Part shown: positions 8,129-63,604 of the stretch, piece by piece
Numbering within the stretch: the stretch's first letter is position 1
How the letters are laid out: the number at the start of each line of letters is the position of its first letter
Source: Hydrocarboniphaga sp.
GTDB taxonomy: Bacteria > Pseudomonadota > Gammaproteobacteria > Nevskiales > Nevskiaceae
Direction: 5' to 3'
Length of the DNA stretch: 64,000 nucleotides
NCBI RefSeq assembly: GCF_028291725.1
Contig: NZ_JAQGNT010000022.1
Coordinates: 1 to 64,000 of the forward strand
Notes under the pieces: generated by a model
Told to the model about the DNA's origin: nothing
The model's database searches: none
The model's input: only the letters and a program-made list of their open reading frames with translations
Made by a program: the position numbers and the translations under genes

Positions 8129-8860
8129 ATGGCATTGAAGAAGAACGAGGCGGCAGCCACCAAGCCACGGCGGCGGCGGGATCCGGACGGGACGCGCATG
8201 GCCATTCTGGAGGCCGCCGGGACGCTGCTTGCGAAGGACGGCCCGGAAGGACTCAGCGTGTCGCAGGTTGCCCAGCTCGCCGGGGTTAACCGCGGCACGG
8301 CCTATCAGCACTTCCAAACGCGCGAGCAACTCGTGGACGCAACCACGGTTTGGGTTAGCGAACAACTGTGCGAAGCCGTATTTGGTGGACTCGCCCCGCG
8401 CAGCCCAGTAGAGCACATTGATCCGCAGCACGTCAGCGAGCACATGGTGCAATTCGCGATGCAGAATCCGGAACTCGGGCGTGCCTGGCTGTTCCATGTG
8501 CTCAGTTCGCCGCATCCGGCTAACGACCCATTCTGGAAACAGTACCGGCAGCGGTTCCAGAAGTTTGCAAAATCCGAGTCCGCACAGCCTGGTATCGACA
8601 TCGACGTGCACACGGTGCTGATGATCATCGGCACCTTTCTTTGGCCCGTATGGGCGCGCGCCCATACGCGCACGGCCAAGGACCGCCAGCTCATGGCCAC
8701 GCGGTTTTCGGATGAGATCCTGCGCTTGAGCCTGTACGGCAACATGCGACCGGAGAAGTATCCCGCGCTCGCCGCCAAGCTGTCGAAAAAAGCACCGAAA
8801 AAGACGCCCCCAAAAGCGCCGAAAAAGGTCGCTGCGGGCACGAGTCGACGGTCCAAGTAA
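8129..8860 (+). CDS. TetR/AcrR-family regulator with a Lys/Pro-rich C-terminal tail
   Basis: 243 residues. A basic N-terminus (KPRRRRD) leads into a TetR DNA-binding domain (MAILEAAGTLLAKDG, then LSVSQVAQLAGVNRGTAYQHF, at about 25-70). A helical ligand domain follows. The last 25 residues are unusual: KLSKKAPKKTPPKAPKK and a basic end, resembling histone-H1-like AlgP tails that add non-specific DNA binding. GGGG sits almost against ATG 8129, closer than ideal. A later start at 8198 would cut into the first helix and is less likely. It stands alone between a dead transposase and a gene-free stretch, and the target is unknown. Confidence 0.85.
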   Translation: MALKKNEAAATKPRRRRDPDGTRMAILEAAGTLLAKDGPEGLSVSQVAQLAGVNRGTAYQHFQTREQLVDATTVWVSEQLCEAVFGGLAPRSPVEHIDPQHVSEHMVQFAMQNPELGRAWLFHVLSSPHPANDPFWKQYRQRFQKFAKSESAQPGIDIDVHTVLMIIGTFLWPVWARAHTRTAKDRQLMATRFSDEILRLSLYGNMRPEKYPALAAKLSKKAPKKTPPKAPKKVAAGTSRRSK

Positions 8861-22727: not shown

Positions 22728-22818
22728 TGAAGGTAGCGTTCCGCCTGTGGAGGCCTGCCGTTCAACAGGCAGAAATCGCCATCAAGTTCATCAGTGGACA
22801 ACTGAGTTCGTAAATGGA

Positions 22819-22829
22819 CAACCATGTTG
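22819..22829. promoter_or_regulatory. Dyad operator candidate upstream of receptor 3
   Basis: CAAC-CAT-GTTG, an exact match to the recurrent dyad, within GGACAACCATGTTGACT. It lies about 152 bases before the receptor 3 start and about 406 bases from sulfotransferase 1. Confidence 0.5.
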
Positions 22830-22980
22830 ACTGGTATGGACTCGACAGGTAACTTTGCGAACCGTTTTTCTGGCTTCGTTCGAACAGACGAGCGAGCTAA
22901 CTCGAGCCTGACACGCAAGACGGTGCGCTTGAGCAGCGGATTCGGGTTCACAAAATATATGCAGAATGAGGAGGAAATGG

Positions 22981-31118: not shown

Positions 31119-31155
31119 TGCATTCCCCCTGAAATGACCTATTGGTTTAATTTTA

Positions 31156-31170
31156 AACAACAGCGTTGTT
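31156..31170. promoter_or_regulatory. Dyad operator candidate before the MaoC-ligase-cofGH-cofE unit
   Basis: Perfect 6-base arms AACAAC-AGC-GTTGTT, the most symmetric copy of the recurrent CAAC-N3-GTTG dyad. It lies about 40 bases upstream of the first start codon of the unit, a position suited to repression. Confidence 0.6.
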
Positions 31171-31249
31171 CGGTGTCGCCGCTAAGGCGCATAACATACT
31201 ACGCTGCTACCGTGACCCGCTCGGCGAATACGCGGCGGCGGTGCCGCCG

Positions 31250-35840: not shown

Positions 35841-35895
35841 GAGGCCGCGGTTGCGCATCGGGCTTCACACGTCGGCAACGGATTGCCGACCTACG
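35841..35895. repeat. REP family B, copy 1
   Basis: A 55-bp unit starting GAGGCCGCGG and ending in GTCGGCAA-N4-TTGCCGACCTACG. It closely matches the stretch around 59142-59195, including the leader before the hairpin. It ends about 14 bases from the ALDH stop and could act as its mRNA 3' stem. Confidence 0.75.
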
Positions 35896-42824: not shown

Positions 42825-43001
42825 TGTTATGGTCTCTTCATTCGCAGCTGGGGATACCGGTCCGCGACCGCGGGTATCTGAGCATCGGCTGGCTGCCTTG
42901 CCAGACTTGATCAACAGGGTCGATTATGACAGCCACCGGAGCCTCACGGCGCAAGGCAAGGCGGCCCGCGATCAGTTGCAGGTAATTTTATGACAACTGG
43001 T

Positions 43002-50659: not shown

Positions 50660-50728
50660 GTAGGGCGGGAGCATCCCGCCTTCCGCGGCGTGGGGGCGGA
50701 CGCGAAAGGCGGGCTGCTCCCGCCCTAC
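50660..50728. repeat. REPIN-like inverted pair overlapping the MBL stop codon
   Basis: Perfect 14-base outer arms GTAGGGCGGGAGCA/TGCTCCCGCCCTAC, 41 bases apart, with an inner GGCGGGA-GCA-TCCCGCC stem. The right arm covers the stop codon (50725-50727) of the minus-strand MBL gene, so insertion of the element probably supplied its end. Confidence 0.7.
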
Positions 50729-51993
50729 TCCGATGCGGGTGGGTTCAGTGCGGCGTCCACCGCGGCGATCTCTGACTTTAGCCACATCGTTTCGCTGAGA
50801 TTGGTGCCGCCCGATTCCTTCAGCAGTAGGTGCAGAGCGTCGTTCTTCACCGCCAGTGCATCGGTCTGCTTAGGCTCCACCGCGAGCGCGATGTCGAGCA
50901 GGTGCAGTGCTTCGAGCGGCTTGTTGTCGGCGACTTTCTGCTGCGCGCGCGCAGCAAGAACCGCGGCGCCGCCAGCGAGTTCGGCCAGGTCGGCATTCAC
51001 CGCCGAGCGCGGCACGCCGTAGAGGCCGGTGGTCGAGTCCTCGTAGTGGAACCAACCGGCCAACTCGTCCCAGATGCTGCGCACGGCCCAGCGCAGGTTG
51101 CCGTGGTACTCGCCGATCTTCAGTTCCTCGGGCAGGCGCACTTCGCGCATCAGCGCGTGCACGGTCGTGCCGGCGTTCATGCCGTCGACCACGGCCTGCT
51201 TCAGGAACGACACCGCCGCATGCATCTTGTCGAGGCTGGCGCGGATGTGGTCCGTGCCGCGGATGGGTTCGCCGTGGCCGGTGATCAGCAGTTCGGCGCC
51301 GAGCTTGCGCACGATATCGAGCGAATGCAGGTAGCGCGTCACCAGGCGCGGACGGTCGCCGCGCATGGTCACCAGGTTCGGCATCGCCAGGAACACCGGC
51401 CCGAACAGGTTACCGGTGAACACCACGCGTTCCTTGGGCATCCATACGACGAGTGATTCCAGCGCCTCGCCGCCCGGCGTCGAAATGACTTCAAAGCGGC
51501 GACCGCCCTGTTCGAAGGCGTAGCAGCGGTCGACGACGATGTCGGGGATCACGCGCGGCGGCTCCGGCGGCTTGCTGCCGCGATTGAGCGTATTGGCCCA
51601 GAGCTTTGCCGAGCGGCGCTTCAGGAAGGGGCCGAGTTCGTCGAAGTAGTTCCAGTTGTCGACAAAGCGCTTCTCGCCGATGACTTCGGTGCCGGACTCG
51701 GTCAATGCCGGCACGCCGCCGTAGTGATCGGCATGCGCCTGCGTCAGCACGATCTTGCGCAGTGGACCGCTGCGACGCGGCGCCAGCAGCTTCCTGGTGC
51801 GCTCGGCGTTGTCCATGAAGCCGGTGTTGACCATCACGTCGCCGTCGGACGTGTTGATCAGGTAGGCGTTGGAGATGTCCTTCGCCATGAAGATGAAGTC
51901 GGTGATGACCTCGGCTGCGGTCTGCTGGCTGCCGGCCATCACCAGGTTGGCCAGCAGTGGCTTGCCTTGCTCTTTTGCGCCCGGCGTGCTCAT
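50725..51993 (-). CDS. Metallo-beta-lactamase-fold protein with alkylsulfatase-type C-terminus
   Basis: 422 residues. The N-terminal MBL domain has TQAHADHYGG at 84-93. The canonical HxHxDH is altered because its first His is Gln85, while His87, Asp89 and His90 remain. The C-terminal part (KIGEYHGNLRWAVRSIWDEL, GWFHYEDSTTGLYG) matches the dimerisation domain of type III alkylsulfatases such as SdsA1, but the N-terminal lid and C-terminal SCP2 domain are absent. It could hydrolyse a sulfate ester or another ester/lactone, and the altered metal site leaves activity uncertain. Its start overlaps the alcohol dehydrogenase stop by 4 bases. Confidence 0.88.
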   Translation of the reverse strand: MSTPGAKEQGKPLLANLVMAGSQQTAAEVITDFIFMAKDISNAYLINTSDGDVMVNTGFMDNAERTRKLLAPRRSGPLRKIVLTQAHADHYGGVPALTESGTEVIGEKRFVDNWNYFDELGPFLKRRSAKLWANTLNRGSKPPEPPRVIPDIVVDRCYAFEQGGRRFEVISTPGGEALESLVVWMPKERVVFTGNLFGPVFLAMPNLVTMRGDRPRLVTRYLHSLDIVRKLGAELLITGHGEPIRGTDHIRASLDKMHAAVSFLKQAVVDGMNAGTTVHALMREVRLPEELKIGEYHGNLRWAVRSIWDELAGWFHYEDSTTGLYGVPRSAVNADLAELAGGAAVLAARAQQKVADNKPLEALHLLDIALAVEPKQTDALAVKNDALHLLLKESGGTNLSETMWLKSEIAAVDAALNPPASE

Positions 51994-53003
51994 GCCTTGA
52001 ACTCCACCATGACCTTGGCCGACTGCGGGCTTGCCGCGACGCCGAAGGCCTCGACCACTTTATCGAACGGGAAGCGGTGGCTGATCAGGCCCGCGATCTT
52101 GTCGCGCAGACGCGGCAGCGCGGCGATCACGTCCGGCATTTCGGTGGGATAGCCGACGGCGGTGGTGATGTTCATCTCCGTGGTCAGCATCGCGCCCAGG
52201 TCCAGCGGCACCGGCTTGCTGTGCGCGGCAGTGATCACCAGGCGCGACTGGAACTTGGCCATGCGCACTACGTCGGAGACGATGTTCGGCGCGCCGGCGG
52301 CGTCGATCCAGGCATCGGTGCCGACGGTTTCGCGGCTGAACACGCGGCCCTTGCCGTGCAATTCGATCAGGCGGGCACGCAGGTCTTCCTTGGTCGGGTC
52401 GAAGGCCGCGCGTGCGCCGAGCGCACGGGCGCGTTCGAGCCGTTCCGGTGCCAGATCCAGTGCCACCACGTCGGTGATGCCGCGGTCGAGCAGCCACAGG
52501 ATCATGCCCAGGCCGATCGGGCCGCAGCCGAATACCACGACCTTGTCGCCGGCCTTGACCTGCATGCGGTTGACGCCATGCATCGCCACCGCCAGCGGCT
52601 CGGTCATCGCCGCGATGTCGTAGGGCAGGCCCTCCGGGATCGCCAGCAGGCTGTCGCCGAACTTGGCGCCGCGCACCAGCAGTTCTTCGGTGAATGCGCC
52701 TTCCGGCCCGCCGCTGCCGACGTAGCTGGGCGTGTTCATCGGGTTGATGATGACGCGCTGGCCGACTTCGAGGTTCTCGACCTCCTTGCCGACATACATG
52801 ACTTCGCCGGCCGCCTCATGGCCCAGCGGCGTGACGCCGCCGGGCTTGCGATGAATGCCGCCGACCTTGATGTAGGTGAGGTCGCTGCCGCAGACGCCGC
52901 AGGCCCTGACCTTGACTACCACGTCCTCGGGCCCAGGCTCCGGCCGCTGATATTCATCCAGCCGGAAGTCGTTGACTTCGTGAATGTTGAGAACATGTCC
53001 CAT
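51990..53003 (-). CDS. Zinc-type (MDR) alcohol dehydrogenase
   Basis: 337 residues. GroES-like domain with GVCGSDLTYIK (catalytic Cys) and GHEAAGEVMYVGKEV, and a Rossmann domain VVFGCGPIGLGMILWLLDRG with Asp in ALDLAPERL, indicating NAD. The four-Cys structural zinc lobe is not evident. It oxidises a secondary alcohol or polyol-like substrate. It lies between SDR 7 (15 bases upstream) and the MBL gene (4-base overlap) in a three-gene unit. Confidence 0.94.
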   Translation of the reverse strand: MGHVLNIHEVNDFRLDEYQRPEPGPEDVVVKVRACGVCGSDLTYIKVGGIHRKPGGVTPLGHEAAGEVMYVGKEVENLEVGQRVIINPMNTPSYVGSGGPEGAFTEELLVRGAKFGDSLLAIPEGLPYDIAAMTEPLAVAMHGVNRMQVKAGDKVVVFGCGPIGLGMILWLLDRGITDVVALDLAPERLERARALGARAAFDPTKEDLRARLIELHGKGRVFSRETVGTDAWIDAAGAPNIVSDVVRMAKFQSRLVITAAHSKPVPLDLGAMLTTEMNITTAVGYPTEMPDVIAALPRLRDKIAGLISHRFPFDKVVEAFGVAASPQSAKVMVEFKA

Positions 53004-53018: not shown

Positions 53019-53804
53019 TTACATCATGACCATGGCGCCGCCGTCGACCGTGATGGTCTCGCCGGTGATGAACGAAGAAGAGTCGCTGGCCAGAAACGCC
53101 GCGACGCCTTCGAAATCCGCCATGTAGCCCGGGCGCGGAATCGCGTTCTTGGCCAGCATGTACTTGTCCAGCGGGCTGAGTTCGTCGGCAGTGCCGGTCA
53201 TGCCGGTCTTGATGTAACCGGGCGCGACCACGTTGGCGCGGATGCCGTGCTTGCCGAACTCCGCGGCCATGCCGCGGATGATCGCGGCGACGGCGGCCTT
53301 GGAACCCGCGTAATGCGGCTTGCCGGCCAGACCCTTGAAAATGGACAGGCTGCCGCAGGCGATCAGCGAGCCGCCGGGTTCGCCGGCTTCGGCACGCTTG
53401 ACCATACAGCGCGCGCCTTCGCGCAGCGTGTAGAACGCGCCATGCAGCGCGACGTCGAGGAACTTGTGGTAGTCCTCGGTAGCCAGCGTCAGCGAGGACT
53501 GCGAGGCCGGTGGCGGGCCGGCGTTGGCGATTACGGTATCGACGCGGCCGAATTCCTTGATCACTTCTGCATACGCGGCGACGATCTCGGATTCGGATGC
53601 GACGTCCACTTTGCGCGTGCTGACGTGCACGCCGAAGGCTTCCAGCTCGGCCTTGGCGGCGGCGTTCTTCTCTTCGTTGCGCGCCCAGATCACCAGGTTG
53701 CCGCCCTGCTTGGCGATGCCGCGGGCAAAGCCCAGGCCCAGGCCGCTGTTGCCGCCGGTGATCACCGCCACCTTGCCGCTGAGATCAAACAGACCTTTTG
53801 CCAT
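53019..53804 (-). CDS. SDR 7
   Basis: 261 residues. TGGNSGLG (17-24), ANAG in place of NNAG (93-96), Ser152 and Tyr165-x3-Lys169 (YAGSK). WARNEEKN after beta-2 (no acidic residue directly at the strand end) allows NADP use. It is the first gene of the SDR-MDR-MBL unit. The recurrent dyad lies 89 bases upstream of its start. Confidence 0.92.
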   Translation of the reverse strand: MAKGLFDLSGKVAVITGGNSGLGLGFARGIAKQGGNLVIWARNEEKNAAAKAELEAFGVHVSTRKVDVASESEIVAAYAEVIKEFGRVDTVIANAGPPPASQSSLTLATEDYHKFLDVALHGAFYTLREGARCMVKRAEAGEPGGSLIACGSLSIFKGLAGKPHYAGSKAAVAAIIRGMAAEFGKHGIRANVVAPGYIKTGMTGTADELSPLDKYMLAKNAIPRPGYMADFEGVAAFLASDSSSFITGETITVDGGAMVMM

Positions 53805-54033: not shown

Positions 54034-56598
54034 TTAGCCGCCGAAGCTATAGCGCAGGCGCGCGCCGAGCATGCGCGGCAGGCCGACTGCGCGCGAATCG
54101 AAGCCGAGCGTGTAGTAGGTGCCCGAGCCATAGGTCATGTACTTCTCGTCGAGCACGTTGGTTGCAAAAAACGACAGGTCGAAGCTGGAGTTGAACATCG
54201 ACGTCCAGTTGATGTTGGCGTTGAGCAGACTGAACGGGTCGAGTACGTCGTCCGGGCTCGATCCGGTTGCCGAGGAGCGCCGCTTGCCGGTGTAGACGTA
54301 GGTTGCGCCGACATCGATCGAGCCGATCTCCTCCGGCAGCGGCAGCGTGTAGGTCAGCGAGGTCACGACGGTGTGGTCCGGTGCGAACGGCAGCGAGTCA
54401 CCCTGGACCGCGATCGGCGTGGCGGTACCGGGAATCGCCACCGCGTTCACCTCGGGCTGGTCGGTATCGAACTTCACCAGCTTGGTATCGAGGAAGGAGT
54501 ACGAGGTCGCCCAGATCAGGCGAGGCAGCGGCTGCAGGAAGGCCTCGACCTCGACACCCTGGATGCGCGCCTTGCCGGCGTTGACGATCGTCGTCGTCGT
54601 CTGCGAACTCGTCGACACATAGCCGTACTGCAACTGCATGTCGGTCAGATCGTTGTAGAACGCCGCGACGTTGAATCGGCCCGGAATCCAGCCGCGAAAG
54701 CTGGTTTTCGCGCCGACCTCGTAGCTGTTGACGTGTTCAGGTTCGAAGGTGTCGATGCCCGCGTCGGCGGCAAGGATCACGTTGCCCTGGCGATAGCCCC
54801 GTACGTACTTGGCGTAGGTCATGACATCCTTGATCGGCTTGTAGGCGAACTGCAGCTGCCCGGTCGGCGCCTGGCTGCTGACCTCGGGGTGGGTTTCCGT
54901 CACGGTCGGGCTGTCGGGTCTCTCGATGCCCAGCAGGTAGGTGTAGCGGGACTTGATGCCATAGCCCTCGGTGCGATCCCAGGTATAACGCGCGCCGACT
55001 GTGGTGCTGAACTTCTCGGTGAAGTTGTAAGTGCCCTCGGCATAGAGCGCACGGTTCAGGTAGGTCGTCTTGAACTGCTGGGCCAGCACGCCGCCGACCG
55101 CGCCGCCCAGCGGATCGAAGCAGTCGTACCCCGACGGGTCGCCCTCGATACTCGCGAGATTGCACGAAACCAGCGCGATCGAGTTGTTGCCCGAGAATCC
55201 GTCCGGCAGACTTTTCTCGAAATAGGCGCCGCTGGTCCACTCGAAAGCGCCGCCGAACGAGCTGCCCTGCAGCTGGAGTTCCTCAACGAAGGTTTCCTGG
55301 CTGGTGACCGGCTCGCCCGGATTCGGCACCGAGATGCCGATCTTGAATTCACGGTTCGGATCGGGGTCGACCCGCACGCCGGCGAGCTCGTAATGGAACT
55401 GAGTGCCGAAGATGTCCGAACCGTTCTCGGTATGCAGATGCGCGTAACTGAAGATGTTCTTGAGCTGCAGCTCATCGTCGATTGCCCAGGTCGTCGTATT
55501 GATCGCGCGCAGCGTCTTTTGCAGGTTCAATGGCGTCTCGATCGTACTGGCCAGATCGTAGAAGCCGCCATTGCCGGCGGCCTTGGCGTCGTCGAGCTGC
55601 TGCTGGCACTGCGGCTGAACGAAGACGAAGAAGGTATTGCCGGCCAGGCTCGGATTGCACTGGTACAGCGTCGACGTGCTGCCGTGGGTCTTCGAATACG
55701 CGTAGCTGAGGATCGTGTAGTTGTCGACGGTATCGGTGATGTTCCAAAGCGCGCTGAGCCGGCCCGAGGTGTAGTTGACGTTGCCCAGGTCGTCGGCGCC
55801 GATGCCGGTGTAGTTTTTCAGATGCCCGTCGCGATGGTTGCTGTCGACGCCGAAACGCAGTTTGAAATTGTCGGTCACCGGCGTATTGATCACCGCCTGG
55901 ATACGCTTCAGGCTGAAGTCGCCGGCCGAGGCCTCGGCGTAGCCCTCGAACGCGTCGGTCGGTTTTTTCGGCACGATCAGCACGGCGCCGCCTGTCGTGT
56001 TGCGGCCGAACAGCGTGCCCTGCGGACCCTTGAGCACCTGCACGTTTTCAAGATCGAACAGCTCGCCGGGGCCGGCGCCGTCTCCGGAGGTCTGCGAGCT
56101 CTGGCCGCGCGGTGCGACCACTTCGGCGAAATAGACGCCGACCGACGCGGTCGTGCGCAGGTCCTGAGTGAAGCCGCGGATCGCAAACGTCGCTGATTCC
56201 GGGCCGAAGCGCTGGTTGGTCGACAACGACGGTGTATACGTCGCCAGATCGGACGAGTTGGTGATGTTCGCGTTGGAAATCTGCTGTGCGTCCAGCACGG
56301 TGATCGAGACCGGCACGTCCTGGGCGCTTTGTTCGCGCCGCTGGGCCGTGACAATGACTTCTTCGATGCCGCGGGACTCCGGAGCTTGATCCTTGTGCTC
56401 TGGCGCGGCGGCTGTTTCGCCCTGCGGCAGCGTGATCACATCCAGCGGCGCCTGCGGCTGGGCCGCTGCGGCAGCCGCTGGCGTCGCCTCGGGGCTAGCG
56501 GTCTCCTGCGTCGGTTCGGAAATCTGCGCCATGGCAGCTCCGGCATACGCCATGTTCGCGGCCGCCGTCATCGTTGCGGCGATCATCATATTTTTCAT
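54034..56598 (-). CDS. TonB-dependent outer-membrane receptor 4
   Basis: 854 residues. Signal peptide MKNMMIAATMTAAANMAYAG with cleavage near AMA-Q. A Gln/Pro-rich linker leads to the plug start IEEVIVTAQRREQSAQDVPV and the signature VQVLKGPQGTLFGRNTTGGA. The barrel ends in ARLRYSFGG. It shares the TASVGVYFAEVVAPRGQSSQ segment with receptors 2 and 3, so the three are paralogs, probably for related substrates. The next feature upstream on the same strand is a PQQ-dehydrogenase remnant, and then a promoter-like TATAAT with a perfect palindrome at 57075-57098. Confidence 0.94.
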   Translation of the reverse strand: MKNMMIAATMTAAANMAYAGAAMAQISEPTQETASPEATPAAAAAAQPQAPLDVITLPQGETAAAPEHKDQAPESRGIEEVIVTAQRREQSAQDVPVSITVLDAQQISNANITNSSDLATYTPSLSTNQRFGPESATFAIRGFTQDLRTTASVGVYFAEVVAPRGQSSQTSGDGAGPGELFDLENVQVLKGPQGTLFGRNTTGGAVLIVPKKPTDAFEGYAEASAGDFSLKRIQAVINTPVTDNFKLRFGVDSNHRDGHLKNYTGIGADDLGNVNYTSGRLSALWNITDTVDNYTILSYAYSKTHGSTSTLYQCNPSLAGNTFFVFVQPQCQQQLDDAKAAGNGGFYDLASTIETPLNLQKTLRAINTTTWAIDDELQLKNIFSYAHLHTENGSDIFGTQFHYELAGVRVDPDPNREFKIGISVPNPGEPVTSQETFVEELQLQGSSFGGAFEWTSGAYFEKSLPDGFSGNNSIALVSCNLASIEGDPSGYDCFDPLGGAVGGVLAQQFKTTYLNRALYAEGTYNFTEKFSTTVGARYTWDRTEGYGIKSRYTYLLGIERPDSPTVTETHPEVSSQAPTGQLQFAYKPIKDVMTYAKYVRGYRQGNVILAADAGIDTFEPEHVNSYEVGAKTSFRGWIPGRFNVAAFYNDLTDMQLQYGYVSTSSQTTTTIVNAGKARIQGVEVEAFLQPLPRLIWATSYSFLDTKLVKFDTDQPEVNAVAIPGTATPIAVQGDSLPFAPDHTVVTSLTYTLPLPEEIGSIDVGATYVYTGKRRSSATGSSPDDVLDPFSLLNANINWTSMFNSSFDLSFFATNVLDEKYMTYGSGTYYTLGFDSRAVGLPRMLGARLRYSFGG

Positions 56599-56615
56599 CG
56601 TCTCCCTCGCGCTCT

Positions 56616-56999
56616 CTATAATTTTTTGATGGGTTTGAACCGCCTTGAATGGCCGTCATCCCTGCGTGCCGCATATCGCTTGAGCTTGTACGCCATCACC
56701 GAATCGCCCTTGCTCGATCCGTACATGCTGTGGCCTCCCGCCGGGATCACCACGTACTGTTCTCCGTTGATCTCGCAGCTCATCGGCGTTGCTATACCGG
56801 CGGCCGTCAGCGCCGAATACTTGGTGCCCATCTGGCCCTGGTCGGTGAACGCTTCGCCGGCATGGGCGGGCCCGGGACTGAAAAGCGCGGCCCACAGCGC
56901 CAGCAGGGCCCAGCGACGGACACGCGCGGATTCGTGACGGCGCCTGAACGTCGGCTTCGGCGGTCCGATAACGGGTCTCGGCAAAGCGCCCCTCCTCAA
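56616..56999 (-). pseudogene. Internally deleted PQQ-dependent dehydrogenase remnant
   Basis: A 127-codon frame joins two ends of a quinoprotein dehydrogenase. First comes an export signal-like stretch (WALLALWAALFSPGPAHAGE), then DQGQMGTKYSALT, which resembles the N-terminal 'DqGGtkYSpLt' of these enzymes. It then goes straight to AAGIATPMSCEINGEQYVVI and PAGGHSMYGSSKGDSVMAY, the classic C-terminal end. The roughly 500 residues carrying the propeller and PQQ site are gone. No good start codon exists in the remaining frame (only TTG at 56999). It lies 17 bases from the receptor 4 start and now effectively forms part of its leader. Confidence 0.65.
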
Positions 57000-57007
57000 C
57001 AGTGTCG
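56997..57007. promoter_or_regulatory. Dyad operator candidate upstream of receptor 4
   Basis: CAAC-AGT-GTCG within CTCAACAGTGTCGACG, an exact core match. It lies about 400 bases from the receptor 4 start and about 85 bases downstream of the TATAAT box at 57093-57098. Confidence 0.5.
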
Positions 57008-57074
57008 ACGCCGTGGGAAGCTGTGTAGACCCGGCATTCTTTATGAACTGAATATTGGATCAGGATGCTAACGC

Positions 57075-57098
57075 TAATGGACACTAGTGTCCATTATA
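57075..57098 (-). promoter_or_regulatory. TATAAT box overlapped by a 22-bp perfect palindrome
   Basis: TAATGGACACT is followed directly by its exact reverse complement (57075-57096). On the minus strand the palindrome begins inside a perfect -10 hexamer TATAAT (57098-57093) and covers the expected transcription start. This is typical of a TetR-type operator that blocks RNA polymerase. No good -35 box is visible at 17 bases. Transcription would run towards the PQQ remnant and receptor 4; the tetR gene lies just upstream (57145-57744). Confidence 0.7.
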
Positions 57099-57144
57099 GC
57101 GTCTTTGCTGTGTCGCGACGATGCGGCTTGTGCTCTCGGAGATC

Positions 57145-57744
57145 TCAGGCTGCCGGATGCTTTACGAAGATGCCCTCGCGCAGGATGCCGGTCCATTCAT
57201 CGGTAAAGCGCTGTGCCACGGTGTCGACATCACTGTTGACTTGATAGCTCAGCATGACGATCGAAGTCACCACCCCGACCAGTATCGAGGACAGGATTTC
57301 AAGATCCATGTCCTGACGCGCACTGCCACTTGCCCGGAACTGTTCCAGTGCGTCAGTCAGCAGCCGGTACAGCGGGTGATCTTTCGTCAGATTCTTGCCG
57401 GCCAGCGCGTCGGCGATCAGTATTCTCGAGGCCTCGCGATTGTTCAGCACCAGCCTGGCCACCTGGTAAACCCGGTCTTCCATCGTGTCGGGATGCAGCT
57501 CTCCCGCCATCGATTCGGCCAGGCGCTCGGAGAGCGAGGCCTGGGCCTCGCGCAGCAGATGATCGCGATCCTCGAAATGCTGGTAGGCGACGCCACGGCT
57601 GACATTGGCCACGCGCGCCGCCTCCTTCAGCGAAAGCGCCCCGGCTCCTTTTTCGGCGACCAGGTCGATCGTCGCCTGCAGCAGCCTGGCGCGGGTCTGC
57701 TCGGGATTGCGGGTCCTGGTTTTCTGAGGGCTTCTTTCGCTCAT
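57145..57744 (-). CDS. TetR/AcrR-family regulator
   Basis: 199 residues from ATG 57744. A much longer frame upstream is shadow of the divergent sulfotransferase. DNA-binding domain at about 15-62: TRARLLQATIDLVAEKG, LSLKEAARVANVSRGVAYQHF. The helical C-terminal domain contains DMDLEILSSILVGVVTSIVM. It is placed between a divergent sulfotransferase gene and the palindromic operator over the TATAAT box that faces receptor 4, so it is the first candidate to bind that palindrome. Ligand unknown; a substrate-derived CoA ester or sterol-like molecule would be logical. Confidence 0.9.
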   Translation of the reverse strand: MSERSPQKTRTRNPEQTRARLLQATIDLVAEKGAGALSLKEAARVANVSRGVAYQHFEDRDHLLREAQASLSERLAESMAGELHPDTMEDRVYQVARLVLNNREASRILIADALAGKNLTKDHPLYRLLTDALEQFRASGSARQDMDLEILSSILVGVVTSIVMLSYQVNSDVDTVAQRFTDEWTGILREGIFVKHPAA

Positions 57745-57858
57745 CGGCGATGGGCTGACCGTGACTATGGCCTGCAGCATCGCCGAGCCGGGGCCCGCAG
57801 TCCACGCCTGCTGTCGCGTGCGAGCGGCCGCGTCCCGACGGCGACATTGCGTCCCTTG

Positions 57859-57939
57859 TTCGCATGCGAATGGCATTGCAGGCCAACCCCTGGCGGCCGA
57901 TGATCGCTTCATCGCCCGGCCATTCCATTCGGCCCGAAT
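57859..57939. promoter_or_regulatory. Two small palindromes in the tetR/sulfotransferase 2 divergent region
   Basis: TTCGCATGCGAA (57859-57870) is a perfect 12-bp palindrome, and ATTCGG-C-CCGAAT (57927-57939) lies about 19 bases before the sulfotransferase start. Either could be an operator for the adjacent TetR protein. They do not resemble the 57075 palindrome. Confidence 0.35.
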
Positions 57940-57957
57940 CATGGAGAGAACATACAG

Positions 57958-59109
57958 ATGGCGCAGAAACTGCTCGCTGACGAACTGATCGAACAGGCAC
58001 GCAAAGCCACTTCGCTGGAACGTTTCGACAGCGAAAGTTTCCGTGAAGGCCTCGAGGTTTTTTTGTCCGACGTCAACGCCTGCACTTATACCGATGCCGG
58101 CCTGGAGCGCGTGCGCGGCAGCGTTATCGGCGCGCTCGCCACGCGGCTGAAGACCACGGCCTACCTCACGCAGCGCCCGGAGTTGCTCAAACGCCCGATC
58201 GAGCGCCCGGTGTTCGTCTTCGGAGTGCCGCGTACCGGCACCACGCTGCTGAGCAACCTGCTCGCCGCCGACCCGCGTCGCCGCTCGCCGCTGACCTGGG
58301 AGATCGACGACCCGGTTCCGCCGCCGACCACCGCGACGCTCTACACCGATCCGCGCGCCGCGGCGCGGCTGGAAGCCGAGCGCAAGATGCTGGCGGCGCG
58401 TCCGGAGATGGGCAAGTACTACCGCAATTCGGCGATCTATCCGAACGAGTGCATGTTCTTCATCCAGTCGGATTTCAAGGCGCTGATGTGGGAATCGCGC
58501 GGCGTGCTGCCGAACTATCGCGACTTTTTGTTCCAGACCGACCTGAGCTCCACCTACGCGTATCACAAGCGCTTCCTGCAGTTGCTGCAGGCTGATGCGC
58601 CGGGCATCTGGAACCTGAAGCAACCCTCGCACGCGCTGTGGCTGGAAACGATTCTGAAGATCTATCCGGACGCACGCTTCGTGTGGACGCATCGCGACCC
58701 GCTCACCGCCACCGGCTCGTTCTGCAGCCTGCTGTCGTTGTCGCACCAGGCTTTCATGGGCCGCGTCGACACGAAGTGGCTCGGCGAGAACTGCTCGTGG
58801 CAGGCCGTGGAGCACGCCGAGCGGATCATGAATTTCCGCGACAAGTTCGGCGAGGACCGCGTCATCGACGTGCACTACGGCGAGCTGATGCGCCAGCCGA
58901 TCGAAACCATGCGCAGGCTCTACAAGGTGCTGGGCGACGACTACACGGCGGAAGCCGAGTCGTCCATGGCCACCTGGATCAACGACAATCCCCAGGACAA
59001 GTTCGGACGCCACGAATACAAACTGGCGCAGTACGGCCTGACGCCGGATCAGCTGCGCAAGATGTTCGAGCGTTATTCGTCGCGCTATCAGGTAGAAGCC
59101 GAGGGCTGA
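57958..59109 (+). CDS. PAPS-dependent sulfotransferase-family protein 2
   Basis: 383 residues, a paralog of the protein at 21262-22413 with the same domain plan. The 5'-phosphosulfate loop GVPRTGTTLLSNLLAADP starts at residue 89, and the 3'-phosphate region is FVWTHRDPLTATGSFCSLLS. N-terminal KATSLERFDSESFREGLEVF aligns with SATSLDDFGEGSFREGMELL in paralog 1. It would sulfate a hydroxyl group of a hydrophobic acceptor. It is divergent from a tetR gene and followed by REP-like repeats and a VOC-family gene. Confidence 0.9.
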   Translation: MAQKLLADELIEQARKATSLERFDSESFREGLEVFLSDVNACTYTDAGLERVRGSVIGALATRLKTTAYLTQRPELLKRPIERPVFVFGVPRTGTTLLSNLLAADPRRRSPLTWEIDDPVPPPTTATLYTDPRAAARLEAERKMLAARPEMGKYYRNSAIYPNECMFFIQSDFKALMWESRGVLPNYRDFLFQTDLSSTYAYHKRFLQLLQADAPGIWNLKQPSHALWLETILKIYPDARFVWTHRDPLTATGSFCSLLSLSHQAFMGRVDTKWLGENCSWQAVEHAERIMNFRDKFGEDRVIDVHYGELMRQPIETMRRLYKVLGDDYTAEAESSMATWINDNPQDKFGRHEYKLAQYGLTPDQLRKMFERYSSRYQVEAEG

Positions 59110-59112
59110 GGC

Positions 59113-59195
59113 GCGTAGGTCGGCAATCCCTTGCCGACGTGAGGCCGCGATTACTCATCGAAGGTACGCGTCGGCAAAGGATTGCCGACCTACGA
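59113..59195. repeat. REP family B, inverted pair (copies 2 and 3)
   Basis: GTCGGCAA-N4-TTGCCGAC occurs twice in opposite orientation (59119-59138 and 59170-59189), bounded by GTAGG and CCTAC-type ends. The stretch 59142-59195 matches 35841-35895 over about 55 bp. Such doublets are typical of mobile REPIN/BIME units. It fills the space between sulfotransferase 2 and the VOC gene. Confidence 0.75.
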
Positions 59196-63408: not shown

Positions 63409-63474
63409 TGAGTCCTCCATCAAGGCCGCGCCACGGTACTAGTTTCAGCGAGCGCCAAAGAGGTCCACAATGCA

Positions 63475-63485
63475 CAACAATGTCG
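63475..63485. promoter_or_regulatory. Dyad operator candidate between the APH-ACAD unit and AraC 2
   Basis: CAAC-AAT-GTCG within a slightly longer inverted repeat ACAAT-GTCGA-ATTGT. It lies about 67 bases from the kinase start and 120 bases from the AraC start. Confidence 0.55.
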
Positions 63486-63604
63486 AATTGTAGACGCGGC
63501 AGATGAATCGGGACGCAGCAGCACCTGCAAGCTGACCAGTCCGGAAAGGCGATATTATGCCCAGACAGGTCATAAGGCCGGCTGAGCAGGAGGAGACAAC
63601 GGTG

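Follow-up and report, generated by a model that had tools for sequence, protein, structure and literature searches.

Several TetR-family regulators provide points of comparison for the locus described here. In Caenibius tardaugens, the estradiol edc cluster is repressed by the TetR-like protein EdcR (PMC8700777). CamR of Pseudomonas putida is a TetR-homologous, autoregulated repressor of the P450cam hydroxylase operon that is released by the substrate, camphor (PMC4592980). In actinobacteria, steroid catabolism is regulated by KstR and KstR2 (PMC8700777), and a TetR regulator with palindromes of other sequences has been proposed for bile-salt genes (PMC12882949).

We analyzed a 64,000-nucleotide stretch of the Hydrocarboniphaga sp. 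genome (referred to as the window) in which a palindrome is located between a tetR gene and the genes of a TonB-dependent receptor operon. On the evidence of sequence, we hold with good confidence that the TetR protein encoded next to it uses this palindrome as its operator and would repress the minus-strand promoter of the receptor operon until a small molecule releases it.

Results

A perfect palindrome lies between tetR and a probable receptor operon

A first-pass annotation of the window had placed a perfect 22-bp palindrome at positions 57075 to 57098. The symmetry is indeed perfect (11 + 11, with a spacer of 0) and begins at 57075, but the palindrome stops at 57096 (TAATGGACACTAGTGTCCATTA, that is, TAATGGACACT|AGTGTCCATTA), and the last two bases are those of an overlapping TATAAT hexamer. 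In 200 first-order Markov simulations, the average number of perfect 22-bp palindromes expected per 64 kb was 0.04. Two were observed in the window: the one at 57075 to 57096 and a GC-rich palindrome within open reading frames at 8647 to 8668. No other copy of the 22-mer was found in the 6.47-Mb genome when up to three mismatches were allowed. A loose dyad pattern matched eight other places in the genome at ≤2 mismatches, versus one for the reversed control; these eight include dyads of an AACA-N4-TGTT type, described below, and are not counted as members of the class.

The tetR gene (57145 to 57744, minus strand) is located upstream of the palindrome, as had been annotated, at a distance of 48 bases rather than 49, with its stop codon ending at 57145. 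Receptor 4 lies downstream, also as annotated, but the gene immediately next to the palindrome is a 127-codon open reading frame (56616 to 56999, minus strand). No dyad was found ahead of tetR itself (57745 to 57960), where two half-site-like matches with ≤2 mismatches were not counted. According to a published study, TetR regulators located <200 bp from a divergent neighbor most likely regulate that neighbor (PMC3511530). The divergent neighbor of tetR is a sulfotransferase gene (57958 to 59109, plus strand), which is kept as a neighbor in the Solimonas terrae-like genome G044 (83%; hereafter S. terrae); the two starts are 213 bp apart, and the gap contains no dyad.

The 127-codon open reading frame, which ends 17 bases ahead of receptor 4, encodes a small protein. 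Its start is a TTG codon at 56999 or at 56984, of which the latter is more likely, and its N-terminus resembles a signal peptide by eye, so that the protein is probably secreted. The small protein has no match in Pfam and a weak match to TIGR03074, at the C-terminal end of this PQQ dehydrogenase model (2e-10, 39.2 bits, far under the model cut-off). It is 66% identical over 47 amino acids to the PQQ dehydrogenase of S. terrae. The S. terrae receptor locus yielded no relative of the small protein. In the same genome, the gene for the complete PQQ dehydrogenase bears an operator copy of its own. Receptor 4 follows the small-protein gene on the minus strand (54034 to 56598) and encodes a TonB-dependent receptor of 854 amino acids with matches to Pfam PF00593 and PF07715. 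Domain matches identify three further minus-strand genes as an SDR oxidoreductase (53019 to 53804), a zinc alcohol dehydrogenase (51990 to 53003), and a hydrolase with a metallo-beta-lactamase fold and an alkylsulfatase dimerization domain (50725 to 51993); all three are probable operon members, the hydrolase gene probably being the last. Because of the close spacing, we infer that the five genes form one operon that begins with the small protein, and receptor 4 is probably controlled as a member of it.

The 199-amino-acid product of tetR, the proposed operator binder, has the helix-turn-helix domain of the TetR/AcrR family, as residues 21 to 67 match TetR_N (PF00440) with 34.4 bits against a cut-off of 24. 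The predicted structure contains nine helices (mean pLDDT 74.7, pTM 0.59) and is consistent with the all-helical TetR/AcrR fold. Comparison of this model with the PDB using Foldseek gave TM scores of 0.49 to 0.70 among the 50 matches listed, which we take, in part by label, to be TetR-family proteins. All 13 NCBIfam TetR subfamily models that matched (ScbR, BetI, AcrR, KstR, and others) scored below their cut-offs, the best with 39.7 bits against 150. A search of plasmids returned 14 records, all with <60% identity, and the best by bits was 34.8% identical over 76% of the query. Among the literature matches listed, no title or abstract beginning was on this regulator.

The dyad accompanies the TetR ortholog within the family

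We made a search pattern, TAATNNACA-N4-TGTNNATTA, from dyads found near close relatives of tetR, with sites from three genomes (G000, the genome analyzed here; G044; and G049). A TetR ortholog (E ≤ 1e-20) was detected in seven of 58 family genomes, and the helix-turn-helix sequence VSRGVAYQHF is invariant in all seven orthologs. The exact dyad was detected in eight of the 58 genomes, namely the seven with a TetR ortholog and G036. Thus, the dyad is present in 7/7 genomes with the ortholog versus 1/51 without it (Fisher p = 2.7e-8, kinship ignored). When the three genomes used to build the pattern were set aside, the association was 4/4 versus 1/51 (p = 1.5e-5, kinship again ignored). The distance between tetR and the nearest site is no more than 2.2 kb in any of the seven genomes.

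Four genera include both genomes that carry the ortholog and genomes that lack it, and the co-occurrence of TetR and dyad is partly co-inheritance of one locus. The sole exception to the pairing is G036, in which the dyad (L039:9276-9297) is flanked by genes for a MerR-type protein and an enoyl-CoA hydratase; one of its half-sites is TCAACA. Extending the search to the order revealed no additional TetR orthologs (7/85). A stricter core pattern, allowed one mismatch, gave one match in a sample of 369 genomes of the class; since this pattern misses the site at 57075, the result measures background only. The first-pass annotation had proposed that the palindrome is a TetR operator, and the association supports both this assignment and the adjacent TetR protein as its likely binder. 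We consider 57075 to 57096 very likely to be the operator of that protein, and we propose that the protein would bind the palindrome as a dimer.

Ten sites were compared, with the G036 site left out. Pairwise identity is 84% in the 22 dyad columns, versus 29% in the 60-bp flanks; the search pattern fixes 14 of these columns and leaves eight free. The TAAT and ACA letters of the half-sites are invariant by the selection of the sites and provide no evidence in themselves. Pairwise identity in the eight free columns is 56% over the ten sites, 78% among six P450 sites, and 42% among the three sites of the class found here, and it exceeds that of the flanks for the ten-site set and for the six P450 sites. 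Perfect symmetry is seen in only two of the ten: the 57075 site and the G044 site ahead of the PQQ dehydrogenase. Over the ten sites, 24 of 40 mirror pairs in the free columns are complementary, which means that the symmetry of 57075 to 57096 exceeds that of most sites.

A palindrome of this length could also have arisen by chance and have no function, and the window does hold a second one, in coding sequence. However, chance would supply 0.04 per window, and other genomes carry matching dyads next to their orthologous regulator, these dyads being more alike than their flanks even in the free columns. On the simulations and the cross-genome conservation of the dyad, we rejected this explanation, which strikes us as scarcely credible.

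The putative operator class precedes different genes in related genomes

The arrangements around the dyad, and the differences between them, can be read directly from the genomes. In five of the seven genomes with the ortholog (G038, G047, G048, G049, and G056), the genes after the dyad are, in order, P450, ferredoxin, and tetR. The P450 was identified by Pfam in G038, G047, and G056, and those of the remaining two genomes are 84-93% identical to that of G047. The 2Fe-2S ferredoxin is present in all five (72-100% identity), with a Pfam Fer2 match in three. The S. terrae-like genome G044 contains four exact sites, each before a different gene set: the orthologous receptor gene, with tetR adjoining as it does here; a P450; a PQQ dehydrogenase; and a gene pair encoding CoxG and a flavoprotein. 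Compared with the genome analyzed here, the G044 receptor is 77% identical and the TetR protein 71%. A fifth, weaker G044 site (L033:17351-17372, TAATGTACACCTGTGTACACTT, 21.5 bits) is found at the start of an open reading frame resembling a fatty-acid hydroxylase.

On another contig, the Hydrocarboniphaga genome encodes a P450 ortholog (76%) and its ferredoxin, without an adjoining tetR. No operator was found at this pair in the 14 kb fetched, where the best score was 1.4 bits (28.9-40 for the ten members). The same was true of eight receptor 4 homologs (56-61% identity, seven stretches from six relatives; best 7.9 bits) and of three further P450 homologs (best 5.5 bits). The site model used in these scans was trained on sites that include 57075, which makes its own score there circular. 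Judged from these arrangements, the regulator and its site travel together, and the target differs.

These gene orders bear on another reading of the palindrome, as a transcription terminator of tetR that forms an RNA hairpin. Its position 48 bases past the tetR stop codon would suit such a role, but no run of T follows it, none of the three terminator-like sites returned by a scan is located here, and the dyad in the five relatives is upstream of the P450 gene and not after tetR. The terminator reading, very improbable in our judgment, was rejected on the outcome of the scan and the placement of the dyad ahead of P450.

The leader between dyad and P450 (L035:7492-7581, with matching stretches in L036, L037, and L038) contains, by eye, GGAG followed by ATG in G047, G048, G049, and G056. 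This ATG possibly begins a short leader peptide; in G047 it is out of frame with P450.

The site overlaps predicted core promoter elements

A consensus scan of positions 56500 to 58000 returned a single promoter, TGGACA-N17-TAGCAT, on the minus strand from 57093 to 57065 (0.3 expected from shuffles). The proposed -35 box, TGGACA (57088 to 57093, from consensus and weighted scans), is within the operator. The proposed -10 box, TAGCAT (57065 to 57070), lies 17 bp past it, and transcription would then start near 57058. Because T..ACA belongs to the operator consensus, TGGACA is not independent evidence. TAGCAT is present at the same spacing in three of the ten sites (G000; G044a, the S. terrae receptor ortholog; and G044d, the S. 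terrae CoxG site). In this trio, which was grouped after the fact and has two of its three sites in one genome, the ten bases past the dyad are 77% identical, versus 43% over 60 bp downstream.

The layout drawn in the first-pass annotation was different: the TATAAT hexamer on the minus strand (57098 to 57093) would be the -10 box, the palindrome would cover the start near 57086, and the same TetR protein would repress. TATAAT is a perfect hexamer that has four bases in common with the palindrome, and the weighted scan scored TCGTCG-N17-TATAAT at 10.7 versus 9.6 for TGGACA-N17-TAGCAT, a lead that comes from the hexamer alone. The best reading of the P450 promoters of relatives likewise places a -10 box, TACATT, inside a dyad arm. 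However, TATAAT lacks a -35 box (the best candidate at 17 bp being TCGTCG), the consensus scan did not recover this promoter, and the orthologous S. terrae site reads cacTAATAG, without TATAAT. Furthermore, TATAAT also occurs in G044a and G056, there on the other arm and in the reverse orientation. The operator halves start with TAAT, so that a preceding TA gives rise to TATAAT, and the hexamer is possibly fortuitous. We regard this layout as unlikely and consider one displaced by 28 bp more probable.

One part of the earlier layout does not depend on this choice. The symmetric site overlaps TGGACA of the only promoter predicted by the consensus scan or, under the rival reading, TATAAT; as predicted core promoter elements are overlapped either way, steric block is likely. 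That the palindrome spans -10 box to start and covers +1, on the other hand, is doubtful, given that TATAAT has no acceptable -35 and is missing from the S. terrae ortholog.

For the six P450 promoters, the best reading in the weighted scan has TACATT inside the right arm and the -35 just upstream (TTTRCA in four, TTTGCG in G049, and TTGTAC in G044). The receptor-type and P450-type readings therefore differ, and a single operator class seemingly occupies two promoter registers, either of which would be consistent with steric block. The top score of all sites, 15.2, belongs to TTATCA-N16-TATAAT at G044a (L032:6066-6087). This promoter faces tetR and could give rise to an antisense transcript into that gene.

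A second dyad class overlaps the first

Some related genomes contain frequent dyads of a second class, AACA-N4-TGTT (TCAACA-N4-TGTTGA; consensus about TNATCAACA-N4-TGTTGATNA). Matches to the loose pattern often have a TCAACA half. At ≤3 mismatches, the loose pattern matched 14 places in G044, where the reversed control gave 0, and 11 in G056, where it gave 3; four of the G044 matches are exact first-class sites. The Hydrocarboniphaga genome shows no excess at the same threshold (4 versus 3 for the control). ATCAACA-N4-TGTTGAT, allowed one mismatch, occurs there three times versus 0.

Scored with a model of the second class, whose training sites were hand-picked (22.7-34.1 bits), 57075 is the highest position in the window at 24.3 bits. 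The best after it is 22812 (22812 to 22833), 154 bp ahead of receptor 3. The other top scorers are at 31154 to 31175, 42908 to 42929, 57221 to 57242, and 63468 to 63489, and some lie within reading frames. The weak AACA-N4-TGTT dyad at 57221 to 57242 is inside the 3' end of tetR, in conserved codons, and shares an uninterrupted stretch of 17 identical bases with S. terrae.

The second-class dyads are possibly operators of another, related regulator. Since the two classes overlap in sequence, such a regulator might also bind at 57075, instead of or alongside the adjacent TetR. Receptor 4 may then be under two regulators, as the first-pass annotation had suggested. The excess of loose dyads in G044 and G056, the top rank of 57075 in the window, and the S. 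terrae identity of the 57221 dyad are consistent with this explanation. However, the exact TAATNNACA-N4-TGTNNATTA dyads track the TetR ortholog (7/7 versus 1/51 without it), the loose pattern is not in excess in the genome itself, although ATCAACA-N4-TGTTGAT is, the 57221 dyad falls in conserved tetR codons, and the model derives from hand-picked sites. We find binding by a different regulator rather improbable and retain the adjacent TetR protein as the preferred binder.

Inverted repeats of the form TCGGCAA-N4-TTGCCGA, which look like REP elements, are located at 35872 to 35889, 59120 to 59137, and 59171 to 59188, with two in opposite orientation after the sulfotransferase gene. The first-pass annotation had mentioned a "recurrent dyad" without defining it; this could be either the AACA-N4-TGTT class or these repeats.

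Discussion

In the mechanism that we favor, a TetR dimer would sit on two TAATGGACA half-sites and keep RNA polymerase off the minus-strand promoter. The -35 box TGGACA and most of the spacer would be inside the operator, with the -10 box TAGCAT four bases beyond it. This promoter would drive the small secreted protein, receptor 4, the SDR oxidoreductase, the alcohol dehydrogenase, and the metallo-hydrolase. A small molecule, probably the substrate of the receptor or a breakdown product, would release the repressor. In the relatives, the same regulator and operator class would act on the P450-ferredoxin-tetR operon, which would make it autoregulated. In the genome analyzed here, tetR is upstream of its putative operator, and the P450-ferredoxin pair is found elsewhere, with neither tetR nor operator.

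The operator itself is an ordinary TetR operator, and the changed target is the more interesting part. We offer, tentatively and with some reservation, a scenario in which a TetR repressor switched targets within one family while its operator was kept. An autoregulated P450-ferredoxin-tetR operon would have given way to a multi-target state (receptor, P450, PQQ dehydrogenase, and CoxG), as in the S. terrae-like genome, and then to control of the receptor operon only, with loss of autoregulation, as in this genome. The same operator would have served in two promoter registers, over the spacer and -10 box in the P450 type and over the -35 box and spacer in the receptor type. We infer the direction of this rewiring from counts, not from a tree.

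A TetR regulator with previously no known role can now be tied, at the level of prediction, to a defined putative operator and a TonB receptor operon. In Solimonas-like bacteria, the receptor, P450, and PQQ dehydrogenase are predicted to handle a single class of substrates. The presence of three arrangements within a single family offers a tractable example of regulatory rewiring, and the pair of regulator and operator would be usable as a sensor part once the inducer is identified.

Among described regulators, KstR and KstR2, whose operators differ, share membership of the TetR family with the protein described here, and a KstR2 structure ranked 21st (TM 0.54) among the Foldseek matches listed. 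The NCBIfam KstR model matched the N-terminal half of the TetR protein weakly, with 25.7 bits against a cut-off of 280, and the hosts are other bacteria. The host of EdcR belongs to another bacterial class. EdcR resembles the present case in that a TetR-like repressor is located next to catabolic genes, here a cluster that has promoters for two operons and for edcT; its putative palindromic operator overlaps a -10 box, and repression is lifted by the substrate and an early intermediate (PMC8700777). Compared by operator only, the two differ: the EdcR operator is TnnCnnTACnAnTnGTAnnGnnA (PMC8700777), versus TAATNNACA-N4-TGTNNATTA here, and by eye the palindrome at 57075 to 57096 does not match the EdcR consensus. 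The CamR system resembles the P450-ferredoxin-tetR operons of the relatives (PMC4592980). When operator and target are compared, CamR differs in that its operator, CAGGCTCTATATCTGCGATATACTGAGCAT, is unlike the one found here, and in that the target here is a receptor operon and not a P450 (PMC4592980). Control of a P450 operon, as exerted by CamR, is suggested by gene order in five relatives but not in this genome, where neither operator nor tetR was found near the P450-ferredoxin pair.
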